Shown here piece after piece: positions 5,589 to 29,929 of a stretch of 64,000 bases of DNA. Source of the stretch: Promethearchaeota archaeon (GTDB lineage Archaea; Asgardarchaeota; Lokiarchaeia; Sigyniarchaeales; SOKP01); NCBI GenBank assembly GCA_019058425.1, contig JAHPYZ010000003.1:1-64000 (forward strand). The letters run 5' to 3'. The position numbers and the translations under genes are program-made. A model generated the notes under the pieces. That model was given only the letters and a program-made list of their open reading frames with translations, made no database searches and was not told the origin of the DNA. Each line of letters begins with the position of its first letter. Position 1 is the first letter of the stretch.

Positions 5589-6018
5589 TAAATTTTAATC
5601 TGATCTAAATCAGACTGATTTTAAATCTTTTAAATCTCGATTTTTACTTATTTTTTATTAAGGGTAAATTCAGCGTCTGATTTCAATGAAAATTCCTTTG
5701 AAAATGTTAAGATATGACACTTTTTAAACCTTGATTCTAATCTCTTTATTATTTTTCAATAAAATTGAGATACTAATTATTCTTACAAATTGTAATTAAT
5801 CCAAGTAAAATATATATAACTCCATATGGATAGGAGAAAAGATCAAACCAATTATACTCTCTTATTAGTTAAAGCAACATAAATTTGAAATCTTAATGAA
5901 GAGATTTTATAAATATTATAATTTATATTTGTACATTTAACTGTTCAATATCTGTTCAAGAAAGAAACAAGAAATATAAATATGATTGTTCCTTTATATT
6001 ATATAAAGGTGTTCAATT
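5589..6018. other. Intergenic region, 430 bp
   Basis: Contains repeat copy 3 near its start. The rest is AT-rich with no ORF of note; the last 100 bp presumably carry the promoter of the longin-like gene. Confidence 0.5.
5661..5695 (+). repeat. 35 bp dispersed repeat, copy 3
   Basis: Near-identical to copy 1. It lies about 75 bp after the stop of the LLM oxidoreductase gene. The three copies are spaced 1.27-1.29 kb apart. Confidence 0.8.
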
Positions 6019-6690
6019 ATGAAGATGATGTCCGAAAAAGATAGAAAGGATATAATTTCAGAAGTGCAAAAATTTGGGGGTATAAGCCTACGTCGTCAAT
6101 CTTTAAGAGTACACAAGAATGGGGCGAAATTTCCAATAAGTAAAACCTATATAGATGATGAGCTTTTGGATCCCGAAATGAGATATACTCTCATTTTAAT
6201 ACCCGAAATTAAAATTGCTTCTAAAACCGTTGTAACCTTAAGTTATTTTGAGAGAAAATTAGGACCTGTAATATTCTATTCATATCCAGAGGATATTCAG
6301 GATGATCGATTACCATTGATAATAAATATAATGGATCAAGCATATAAAGAGGGTTATTATGTCCACATGTCTAGCATTGTACCATCATCCTTGAATTATT
6401 ATTTTGAAATTCCTTCAGAATGGGCTCGAGGCAATAAAGAAATGCTTATGATTAGTGTAATATTAGAAAAACCAATAAGTAAGTTATTAGGTCAGAGTAT
6501 ACAAGAAATTTGTACTGATTTTGCTAGAAAATTAAAAAACATAGAAGGGCTTTTTAAAGCACTATATGTGAAGGAAATTGAGAAATTCCCTGAAAAAGAG
6601 CATTCTGATATTAAAAAAATTAATGAAAGTTTAAGAAGAAAAATAGAAGATTTTTATCAGGAAATAATTATATCCACTAAGCAAGAATGA
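6019..6690 (+). CDS. Longin-like domain protein (paralogue of the gene at 32263)
   Basis: 223 residues. Residues 1-65 are a small basic module. From about 70 follows a segment shared with the protein at 32263-32757: 'LSYFERKLGPVIFYSYP' then 'FEIPSEWARGNKEMLMIS'. A beta-strand starting 'Y-F-x-x-x-x-GP' and the predicted alpha/beta order suit a longin or roadblock-like fold, a type abundant in Asgard archaea and used in eukaryotes by trafficking and GTPase-regulating proteins. The C terminus is a charged helix. Longin-like is an inference; the paralogy is seen directly. The gene is monocistronic. Confidence 0.55.
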   Translation: MKMMSEKDRKDIISEVQKFGGISLRRQSLRVHKNGAKFPISKTYIDDELLDPEMRYTLILIPEIKIASKTVVTLSYFERKLGPVIFYSYPEDIQDDRLPLIINIMDQAYKEGYYVHMSSIVPSSLNYYFEIPSEWARGNKEMLMISVILEKPISKLLGQSIQEICTDFARKLKNIEGLFKALYVKEIEKFPEKEHSDIKKINESLRRKIEDFYQEIIISTKQE

Positions 6691-22475: not shown

Positions 22476-23744
22476 TTATGTGCCCTCAAGAAAGCCGTGG
22501 ATGTAGTTATATTGTTCTTCGGTTAATTTATCGATCTCCACGCCCATGGATTGAAGCTTTAGGAATCCTACTCTGTCATCAATCTCTACAGGTACTTCAA
22601 TCATACCAGGTTTCAATGAATTTTTATTTTTGACAATATATTCTGACATTAAGGATTGAAGACCGAATGACATATCCATAACTTCAGCGGGGTGTCCTTC
22701 TGACAAGACTAAATTTGCTAATCGTCCCTTAGCAAGCAGATAAATTCTTTTTCCATCTGGAAAAATTAATTCTTCAACATCTTGTCTGATCGGTTTTATT
22801 TCTTTAGCGTACTCGTAAAGTTCTTTGGTTGGAACCTCAATATCGAAATGTCCAAGATTACCCAGAATAACACCATTCTTGAATTTATCGAACATTTCTT
22901 TTTTCGGAGCAATGACGTGCTTACATCCTGTTGCAGTTAGAATTATATCTGCGTTAGCTAAAGTATCCTCAATGGGCATGACCTGATAACCCGAAAATTT
23001 AGCTTGAAGTGCTTTAATCGGATCAACTTCTGTAACAATTACATTTGCTCCAAGACCTCTTGCTCTCAAAGCCATTCCACTACTGCAATGACCATATCCA
23101 GCGATAACTACATTCTTACCTGCAAAAAGAACATGCATCCCATAAATTGCTGAAACTATACCTTGCCCCGTACCTAGTTCATTATCAAACTGATTCTTAC
23201 ATCGAGCATCATTTACAGGGAATAATGGTACCTTCAATACTCCTTGTTTATCCATTGCTTTGAATCTTTTAACACCAGTGGTTGTTTCTTCCTGACACGC
23301 AATAATGGTACCTGATGTTATAAGATCTTTATATTCTTGATGAGCAGTAACTATCATATCAGCACCATCATCAATCAATATGTTTGGTTTGGCATCCAAA
23401 CACTGCCTAATACACCAGTAGAATTCTTCATCTGTATTACCGTGCCATGCAAAAACATTAATTCCTTCTTGTACTAATGCTGCTGCTACATTATCTTGAG
23501 TTGATAATGGATTACTACCACAGAGGTAGACTTCGGCTCCACCAGCTTTAAGAGTTCGTGCTAAATTACCAGTCTCCTTTGTTATATGCAGACAACCTGC
23601 TATAATTATCCCTTTTAATGGTTTTTCCCTTTGAAATCTTTCACGAATAACTTTTGCAGTGACTGGCATCTTACTTTCAGCAATATAAAGTGCTTCTTTT
23701 CCTTGATCAGCTAGACTTTCATTTGCTACTTTATAATTTACCAT
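22476..23744 (-). CDS. ahcY: Adenosylhomocysteinase (S-adenosyl/inosylhomocysteine hydrolase)
   Basis: 422 residues, complete. It removes S-adenosylhomocysteine (or, in some archaea, S-inosylhomocysteine) formed by methyltransferases. Seen are 'AGCLHITKETGNLARTLKAG', 'QEETTTGVKRF', 'PLFPVNDARCKNQFDNELGT' with the catalytic Lys/Asp region, and the NAD site 'VVIAGYGHCSSGMALRARGLG'. The C terminus ends 'IHGFLEGT' without the KPDHYRY tail of bacterial and eukaryotic enzymes, the archaeal form. It is divergent, over 118 bp, from the Lrp-TBP-Lrp regulator gene. Confidence 0.95.
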   Translation of the reverse strand: MVNYKVANESLADQGKEALYIAESKMPVTAKVIRERFQREKPLKGIIIAGCLHITKETGNLARTLKAGGAEVYLCGSNPLSTQDNVAAALVQEGINVFAWHGNTDEEFYWCIRQCLDAKPNILIDDGADMIVTAHQEYKDLITSGTIIACQEETTTGVKRFKAMDKQGVLKVPLFPVNDARCKNQFDNELGTGQGIVSAIYGMHVLFAGKNVVIAGYGHCSSGMALRARGLGANVIVTEVDPIKALQAKFSGYQVMPIEDTLANADIILTATGCKHVIAPKKEMFDKFKNGVILGNLGHFDIEVPTKELYEYAKEIKPIRQDVEELIFPDGKRIYLLAKGRLANLVLSEGHPAEVMDMSFGLQSLMSEYIVKNKNSLKPGMIEVPVEIDDRVGFLKLQSMGVEIDKLTEEQYNYIHGFLEGT

Positions 23745-23818
23745 TTAAATCACTTTCTTTTTTGTAAGAATATTAATTTTAATTAATTAATAAACCTTTT
23801 TTTGGTTAAAAGCAAATA

Positions 23819-23826
23819 TTTATATA
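23819..23826 (+). promoter_or_regulatory. TATA-like box upstream of the Lrp-TBP-Lrp gene
   Basis: 'TTTATATA' about 37 bp before the TTG and 55 bp before the ATG of the regulator gene. Initiation about 25 bp downstream would give a short leader. It lies in the region shared with divergent ahcY. Confidence 0.4.
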
Positions 23827-23862: not shown

Positions 23863-25167
23863 TTGGAAAAGCGTAATATAATGAGTACTCTTAATGATCA
23901 GATAGAAGTCCAACGGTTTATTAAAAATTTGAGTGGAAAAACCAAATTTATCATATCAAAAAAATCCCGTTCGATTGGACTTTCAAGACAAACATATCAA
24001 AACAAACTGGATGGTTTGAGAGAGCAAAAAATAATTAATAATTTCACTATTAACATTAATCCTAATATCCAACCCAACAACTTGAAATATGTGATGCTTG
24101 AAATAAAAACTAACCCAAAGGAGCCTGAATTAGTCAAAAGGTTGTTAGATATTCCCCAATTAAGAATGTTAGATGGAATAATTGGTGATTTCTCTCTATT
24201 CGCCTTATTCATCTTTAAATCTTCAAAAGAGTATTATAAGATATTAAATACCATAGACAATATAATGGCTAAATCATACTTCAAAAAATATCAAATTATT
24301 GAAACTATAAAAGTATTTAAAACCAATGGAATAAGCTTGAGAAAATCAAAGATGACTCTTGAGGAACAACTACAGGACCATCTAAGTGAAGTATTAGTAG
24401 AAAATAATGATATTAACGATGATAAGATAGAAATTGAGATACCTGAAAAACTCGATTTAAATCAAATTGCTCAGAACAATTCAGATATAGAATATAATCC
24501 TAAAAAATTTCCAGGACTAGTTTTTAAGATTAAAAACTCTCCTGTGACAATTTTAATCCTTTCAAATGGAAAACTAGTCATAAATGGCTTTAAGGGTGTA
24601 GCTTATAATGATCGAATAAGAAATTTAATTGTTACCAGCATCAGAAAAATTGGAATAAAACTAGATAAGGAAATCATGGATTCTAATTATGAGATAGACA
24701 AAATTGATTACTTTATTTTAAGTATACTTAAGGATAATCAAGGAAATAAGCCAATATCCACTTATGAAATAAGTAATATTTTTAAAGAACTACATCAAAT
24801 GGAGATTTCTCAATCAACTATTCATAATAGAATAAAAAGACTCGAATCTCAAGGTGTAATTTTGAACTATACTATAAATTTTAATCCAAAAAGACTAGGT
24901 TTTAAAGGAAAATATCTACTTCGAATAAAACCAAAAGATCCTTCAAAATACAATGAACTTGCCCTCAGACTAGATAAGAATAAGAATATAACCGATCTAT
25001 TTCGAATAGGTGAACAATATGGACTATTTGCTATTGTTCGGGTAAAGAATATCGATGATTATGCAACTTTTATTAGAGATCTTTATACTTCGGAAGAAAT
25101 TGAAGATACCTTTACAAATTTTGTATTAGATGAGCTTAAACTTTATACTAATTTTGAAATATTTTAA
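23863..25167 (+). CDS. Transcription regulator: Lrp/AsnC module - single TBP repeat - Lrp/AsnC module
   Basis: 434 residues (TTG start; ATG at residue 7 is an alternative). Residues ~15-60 are an HTH and ~60-155 an AsnC-like ligand domain; ~188-268 match one TATA-binding-protein repeat; ~275-345 are a second HTH and ~345-430 a second AsnC domain. The TBP part reads 'LDLNQIAQ', 'IEYNPKKFPGLVFKIK', 'ILILSNGKLVINGFK', as in archaeal TBP. The DNA-kinking Phe in 'FPG' is kept, the second (LIF-SG) is Leu. A normal TBP has two repeats, so this would need to dimerise or serve another purpose. Lrp/AsnC proteins sense amino acids or effectors and control transcription. Divergent ahcY is the obvious candidate target. 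I know of no described protein with this order. Confidence 0.85.
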   Translation: MEKRNIMSTLNDQIEVQRFIKNLSGKTKFIISKKSRSIGLSRQTYQNKLDGLREQKIINNFTININPNIQPNNLKYVMLEIKTNPKEPELVKRLLDIPQLRMLDGIIGDFSLFALFIFKSSKEYYKILNTIDNIMAKSYFKKYQIIETIKVFKTNGISLRKSKMTLEEQLQDHLSEVLVENNDINDDKIEIEIPEKLDLNQIAQNNSDIEYNPKKFPGLVFKIKNSPVTILILSNGKLVINGFKGVAYNDRIRNLIVTSIRKIGIKLDKEIMDSNYEIDKIDYFILSILKDNQGNKPISTYEISNIFKELHQMEISQSTIHNRIKRLESQGVILNYTINFNPKRLGFKGKYLLRIKPKDPSKYNELALRLDKNKNITDLFRIGEQYGLFAIVRVKNIDDYATFIRDLYTSEEIEDTFTNFVLDELKLYTNFEIF

Positions 25168-28951: not shown

Positions 28952-29929
28952 GTGGGATTAATTTCAAGTTGGAATGAATTGAGAGTTGATTCAGAAGATT
29001 ACTCTAGTATAGATAATACCGTATGCATTGAATGCGGGAAAAACATTTTTTTTGATGAAAATCGAGGACTAGTAGTTTGTGAAGAATGTGGACTAGTTCA
29101 TTCAGAAAAACATATTGATCGTGGACCAGAATGGAGAGCTTTTGATGCTGATCAGAAGAAGAAGAGAACTAGAACAGGAGCACCTATGACTTATATGATA
29201 CATGACAAAGGTCTTAGCACAATGATTGACTGGAAAAATCGGGATATTTATGGAAAAGAGATACCTGCTAAATTGAGGGGGCAAATTTTCAGACTTCGCA
29301 AATGGCAAAGCCGTATACGAGTCTCTGATGCTACAGAAAGAAATCTTACTTTTGCATTGAGTGAACTTGATCGGATGGCATCAAATTTAGATCTTCAAAA
29401 AAATTTACGAGAATGTTCAGCAAAAATATATCGCGACGCAGTTGAAGCTCATTTAATTCGTGGAAGAAGTATCGAAGGTGTAGCTGCTGCAAGCTTATAT
29501 GCTGCATGTAGAATGTATAAAATTCCACGTACTTTAAATGAAATTGCAGAAGTTGCTCGCGTAGATAAAAAAGAAATCGGTCGCTCTTTTAGATTCATTT
29601 CAAAAGAATTAGAATTAAATTTGAATCCAACTAAACCAATGGATTTTCTTACGAGGTTTATATCTGAATTGCAGTTACCTACTGAATGTCAAAAAATAGC
29701 TAAATCAATAATTAGAATTGCGGAAGAGCGTGGATTGACTTCTGGAAGAGGCCCAACAGGAGTATGTGCAGCTGCAATATATGCATCATGTATTTTATCA
29801 AATGAACGAAGAACTCAAAGAAAAATTGCTCGAATTAGCTGTGTAACTGAAGTTACAGTTCGAAATCGCTTCAGTGAACTCGTAGAAAATCTTAACCTTG
29901 GAATATCATTAAAAAAAAACAATAAATAG
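28952..29929 (+). CDS. tfb: Transcription initiation factor TFB (TFIIB homologue)
   Basis: 325 residues from a GTG start. Zinc ribbon '[20 protein letters not shown]' to 'CG' (about 25-47), B-reader/linker '[19 protein letters not shown]', then two cyclin folds ending with '[20 protein letters not shown]' and '[16 protein letters not shown]'. It bridges TBP on the TATA box and RNA polymerase. The cognate two-repeat TBP is not in this window. Linked to gar1. Confidence 0.96.

Follow-up and report, generated by a model that had tools for sequence, protein, structure and literature searches.

TATA-binding protein (TBP) is normally a complete factor made of two repeats, which acts at promoters in general. 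Archaeal regulators of the Lrp/AsnC family, such as PH1519 (PDB 2cyy), LysM and the TBP-recruiting activator Ptr2, are built of HTH and RAM modules, and activators of this family sit directly upstream of the BRE, where they make contact with TBP (PMC2995911). A monopartite TBP-like domain is found at the N terminus of the nuclease RNase H3, where it binds nucleic acid (PMC4132731); it is like the segment described here in being a single TBP-like unit carried on another protein, but it is distant (Foldseek E 0.13, compared to 2e-5 for TBP) and does not derive from present-day TBP.

The regulator described here combines parts of TBP and of Lrp/AsnC proteins in one chain. It is encoded in a 64,000-nucleotide stretch of DNA (the window) from a Lokiarchaeia genome, which belongs to the archaeal group closest to eukaryotes. 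The fused TBP part resembles canonical archaeal TBP (PF00352; its nearest relatives in the tree are the TBPs of the same genomes, such as the 235-aa C82) in the sequence and fold of repeat 1, including the FPG and S.GK motifs. In contrast to canonical TBP, which has two repeats, the fusion has one, without the first half of strand S1 and its dyad contacts, without the TFB-binding repeat 2, and placed inside an Lrp protein. The likeness to archaeal Lrp/AsnC regulators lies in the HTH and RAM modules and, for activators of the Ptr2 and LysM type, in a box that adjoins the BRE/TATA region, whereas here one chain carries two modules, which in 13 genomes enclose a TBP repeat.

Searches of open-access papers turned up no Lrp regulator described as carrying a lone TBP repeat; the regulator is of the Lrp kind, with an added part for which we found no precedent there. 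A single repeat in a sequence-specific regulator amounts to a natural half-TBP, with which the action of an isolated half-saddle can be studied, and this bears on how TBP arose from one repeat. Since close relatives at this gene position have the repeat, never had it or have lost it, its effect is testable with matched natural proteins.

Domain architecture and fold

The regulator reading frame is open at 23863-25167 (+) and gives 434 aa when counted from the TTG at 23863. The probable start is the ATG at 23881 (428 aa), from which the ortholog alignment is best; the TTG lies inside a conserved box upstream of this ATG, and residue numbers given here count from 23881. The order of parts is HTH-RAM, a polar linker, one TBP repeat and HTH-RAM, all on the forward strand. 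The N-terminal module comprises HTH1 (23881-24075) and RAM1 (24076-24339), the latter a ligand/oligomerisation domain, and is followed by the linker (24340-24426), which contains a predicted helix at residues 160-173. The linker was delimited from the ortholog alignment and the AlphaFold2 (AF2) model, and in the alignment its length varies, being much shorter in the genomes G105, G097, G136 and G138. The TBP repeat (24427-24666) precedes HTH2 (24688-24888) and RAM2 (24889-25164); the boundaries of the HTH and RAM parts are approximate.

The C-terminal module is clear. With the whole protein as query, AsnC_trans_reg was matched with E 3.9e-12 (best stretch 350-417) and HTH_24 with 1.4e-4, and the module as a whole matched PDB 2cyy with 2.2e-12, so that both the HTH and the RAM of an Lrp/AsnC protein are present. 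As a single sequence, the N-terminal module matched AsnC_trans_reg with E 0.016, which is under the Pfam cut-off. A profile of this module made from 26 orthologs matched Lrp structures over HTH and RAM (2cyy, 1.2e-12 over 117 positions) and also the C-terminal module (hhalign, 5e-12); RAM1 has motifs that are invariant across orthologs, and the AF2 model has helices in HTH1. On this profile evidence, the N-terminal module is likewise an Lrp/AsnC module with HTH and RAM. A Pfam search of the regulator gave no match to an RNase H nuclease domain.

The segments LDLNQIAQ, EYNPKKFPGLVFKIK and SNGKLVINGFK, by which the first-pass annotation had recognised an archaeal TBP repeat, are all present in the TBP part. 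This part matches PF00352 in one stretch with E 4e-14 and 52.6 bits (cut-off 22.9), a phmmer search of the regulator against the PDB found archaeal TBP (1pcz, 1.8e-17), and the TBP hit in its own genome lies at 24436-24612. The proposed arrangement, with Lrp/AsnC modules on both sides of a lone TBP repeat, is upheld. Tandem TBP repeats were not found, the repeat being single in 13/13 fused copies.

An AF2 prediction of the repeat alone, made with 10 sequences, gave a strand, a helix, four strands and a helix (S1-H1-S2-S3-S4-S5-H2, with the first half of S1 missing), with a mean pLDDT of 73 and a pTM of 0.61; pLDDT was about 70-83 over the TBP domain. In a Foldseek search with this model, the 44 best PDB matches were all TBP (E 2e-5 to 8e-3). 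Other alpha/beta folds, namely an RNase H3-like domain and a DNA glycosylase, came behind these 44 TBP chains, with E values no better than about 0.13. In the predicted model, therefore, the fold of the repeat is a TBP half-saddle, and the structure prediction, which had been named beforehand as the place where the TBP assignment could fail, supports it. Structural matches to both Lrp and TBP were obtained with a model of the full-length protein; because this model was of modest confidence (pTM 0.37), we have left the arrangement of its domains uninterpreted.

Distribution and origin of the fused repeat

The first-pass annotation had proposed that the same domain order be sought in other Asgard genomes. 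Among 228 genomes of the phylum, it was found in 13, all of them Lokiarchaeia of one family, in which they are spread over five genus groups. The 47 further orthologs examined, which lie at the same place divergent from ahcY in other Lokiarchaeia, have the same two modules and are plain tandem Lrp proteins without the repeat. The genes are thus orthologs of a single regulator at a fixed locus, some with the TBP insert and some lacking it.

When a tree was built from the Lrp parts, leaving the insert out, all 13 fused proteins fell within one clade of 18 rows (100/99). Nested among them are five rows that lack the repeat, four as one clade and the fifth as a single row beside a fused sister. 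The tree requires three changes of state, and forcing the 13 fused proteins into one clade was rejected (p-AU 0.013). Judged from this tree, the distribution of the repeat is best read as one gain, which occurred once in this Lokiarchaeia family, and two losses; transfer or recombination of the repeat between orthologs may also have taken place. Separate gains in every lineage were discarded, as only three changes are needed.

Trees of TBP repeats placed the fused repeats with canonical repeat 1, away from repeat 2 (100/95 and 100/100), and the window repeat is on average 41% identical to repeat 1, compared with 24% for repeat 2. By these phylogenies, the fused repeat descends from the first repeat of the canonical TBP of its own lineage, and an origin from repeat 2 is ruled out. 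The genome from which the window comes also has three ordinary two-repeat TBPs, C82, C101 and C50, and C50 (199 aa) is strongly diverged among these paralogs.

The ahcY intergenic region

The divergent neighbour of the regulator gene is ahcY (22476-23744, -), named by eye from its sequence as S-adenosylhomocysteine hydrolase, and it is the probable target of the regulator. It was found divergently upstream in 58/58 orthologs whose contig reaches it, the other 2 of 60 loci stopping at a contig edge, and this constant pairing strengthens the ahcY intergenic region as the suggested binding site. In two relatives (L116 of G116 and L047 of G118), two ORFs that match ahcY lie upstream of the regulator, the result either of a duplication or of a split in the gene. 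A TFB-like gene (zinc-ribbon and cyclin-like parts, by eye) is located at 28952-29929 (+), downstream of the fusion by three genes, and this order is kept in several relatives.

Between the two genes lies a putative operator, the imperfect inverted repeat TTGGTTAAAAGCAA (23802-23815), flanked by two divergent TATA-like elements: a putative TATA box of the regulator gene, ATTTATATA (23818-23826, +), which most of the clade's orthologs retain, and a putative TATA box of ahcY, TTTATTAA (23787-23794, -). The TTGGTTAAAAGCAA block is conserved in nearly all 18 clade orthologs, with and without the TBP repeat. A second operator-like box at 23863-23876 is a degenerate copy of a 14-mer that in relatives reads TTGCAAAATTGTAA, forms a near-palindrome and stands directly before the start codon. 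An exact copy of the 14-mer is present in G111, G112, G115 and G128, only one in each genome and always at the regulator promoter. Allowing one mismatch gave only about twice as many matches as a reversed-pattern control, so that this search revealed no regulon beyond the regulator gene itself. The layout of box and TATA element is the arrangement of Lrp activators next to the BRE (PMC2995911). Because the operator-like boxes are also found in orthologs without the repeat, their presence does not argue that the TBP part has a function.

Residues of the fused repeat and its possible roles

Each alignment column of the 13 fused copies was set against 31 canonical repeat-1 sequences, with yeast numbering for the positions named here (N69, V71, T73, 98 and 120). 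The first half of strand S1 is absent or replaced in 13/13 copies, including the positions of N69, V71 and T73, which make the dyad contacts with the minor groove of DNA. On the outer DNA face, the Phe of FPG, a Pro, an Arg/Lys at 98 and a Lys/Arg at 120 are each kept in 13/13. The second intercalating Phe is kept in 10/13, with Leu in the window copy, Ser in G116 and Glu in G105; the Leu that had been pointed out earlier is real but atypical. In strand S1, Glu is found at positions that face DNA in TBP.

Our preferred reading, which we hold tentatively, is that the fused repeat serves as a tethered half-saddle beside the Lrp site, contacting A+T-rich DNA and competing with or tuning TBP at the ahcY promoter and at the regulator's own. 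In this reading, a regulator of the Lrp type, acting locally on ahcY and on its own gene, gained repeat 1 of the cell's TBP in the linker between its modules. Its HTHs would occupy the box that separates the divergent promoters, adjoining both TATA-like elements, and from there the tethered TBP half could reach the adjacent A+T-rich minor groove and make a half-site contact or a kink. The Phe/Lys outer DNA face would serve this contact, the dyad contacts and the TFB-binding half being absent, and TBP would be competed with or tuned at both promoters as set by the ligand state of the RAM domains. The inserted half may in this manner let the regulator act directly on neighbouring start sites. 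Precedents are the Lrp activators that touch TBP (PMC2995911) and the nucleic-acid-binding TBP-like unit of RNase H3 (PMC4132731). The Leu in place of the second Phe in the window copy, the degenerate second box and the Glu residues in S1 count against this DNA-contacting role, and so do the faster evolution and the two apparent losses of the repeat described below.

It is rather less probable that the TBP half is a protein-interaction module for TBP or for a repeat-1 partner, which would recruit or sequester a basal factor at the ahcY and regulator promoters as Ptr2 does, via another surface. Lrp activators contact TBP and bind beside the BRE (PMC2995911), which matches the position of the box here; in addition, helix H2 (IRK.GIK) is well preserved among the fused copies, and the loss of DNA contacts in S1 would suit a role other than DNA binding. 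However, the best-conserved surface residues (FPG, S.GK and Lys/Arg) are on the side that faces DNA.

The other main rival, slightly less probable again, is that the repeat is a nearly neutral insertion, a folded spacer that does nothing in itself and is kept only because it is harmless to the tandem Lrp protein. Between orthologs, dN/dS was 0.15-0.71 in the TBP part, with values of 0.3-0.7 in many pairs, and 0.07-0.20 in the Lrp parts, the TBP part evolving several times faster; only about 9 of its roughly 80 positions are invariant, and the linkers are variable. This fast evolution, together with the two apparent losses, indicates that the repeat is dispensable. Yet dN/dS is below 1 throughout and the reading frame is open in 13/13 fused copies, and the invariant positions are TBP signature residues, those on the surface (FPG Phe, S.GK) included, despite the divergence of the fused repeats to 36-66% identity with the window copy. 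The same repeat, moreover, has been fused to another protein as well (see below). As judged from these ratios, the TBP repeat is under relaxed purifying selection, constrained but less so than the rest of the protein.

A promoter-specific TBP, in which the fused halves of two chains form a full saddle and recruit TFB, is very improbable. The predicted half-saddle fold and the oligomerisation of Lrp modules in known relatives (PMC2995911) are in its favour, but the repeats are of the repeat-1 type only, and strand S1, which lies at the junction of the halves, lacks its first half in 13/13 copies, which weakens the earlier proposal of a saddle completed by homodimerisation. In canonical repeat 2, a Glu stands before Pro in the stirrup in 32/32 sequences examined. 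This Glu contacts TFB, and in the fused copies its position is occupied by Asn (10/13) or by Asp or Ser. The earlier suggestion that the fusion could recruit TFB as an alternative TBP is thus not supported, the segment being repeat 1 with repeat 2 absent and the Glu replaced in 13/13. Because the dyad half of S1 and the TFB-binding repeat 2 are missing, TFB recruitment of the usual kind is unlikely; a stand-alone TFB-recruiting TBP is, on these residues, unlikely as well, and the fusion cannot be expected to start transcription alone. An artefact of assembly, or similarity by chance, could be suspected from the draft state of the source genome (143 contigs, 7.4% contamination), but the same join in 13 assemblies, at 64-79% identity and in the same gene neighbourhood, refutes it and leaves it next to no probability.

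A profile search with the fused repeat found seven further proteins of about 320 aa, from seven related genomes of one genus group (g8), each with one C-terminal TBP repeat behind an unrelated region of about 220 aa (L124:1976-2938, L125:1702-2658, L126:1312-2277, L127:3969-4934, L128:2754-3716, L129:2543-3514 and L130:2462-3427). Their repeats, too, belong to the repeat-1 type, and they group in a single clade (100/99); a shared origin with the tandem-Lrp fusion was neither shown nor rejected (p-AU 0.39). With both fusions taken together, it is a fairly balanced possibility, put slightly on the doubtful side, that gene-specific and probably ligand-sensing regulators have adopted half of TBP as a tethered module, which acts on TATA elements or on TBP at chosen promoters and has been built into more than one Lokiarchaeia protein (the tandem Lrp and the second of about 320 aa). 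The region of about 220 aa gave no convincing Pfam or PDB match, and an AbrB-like motif that had been seen by eye in this N-terminal part was not confirmed by profile searches of Pfam or the PDB. TBP-free homologs of this region exist, and one of them, which is 58% identical and has no Pfam family, is encoded in the window at 6007-6675 (+).
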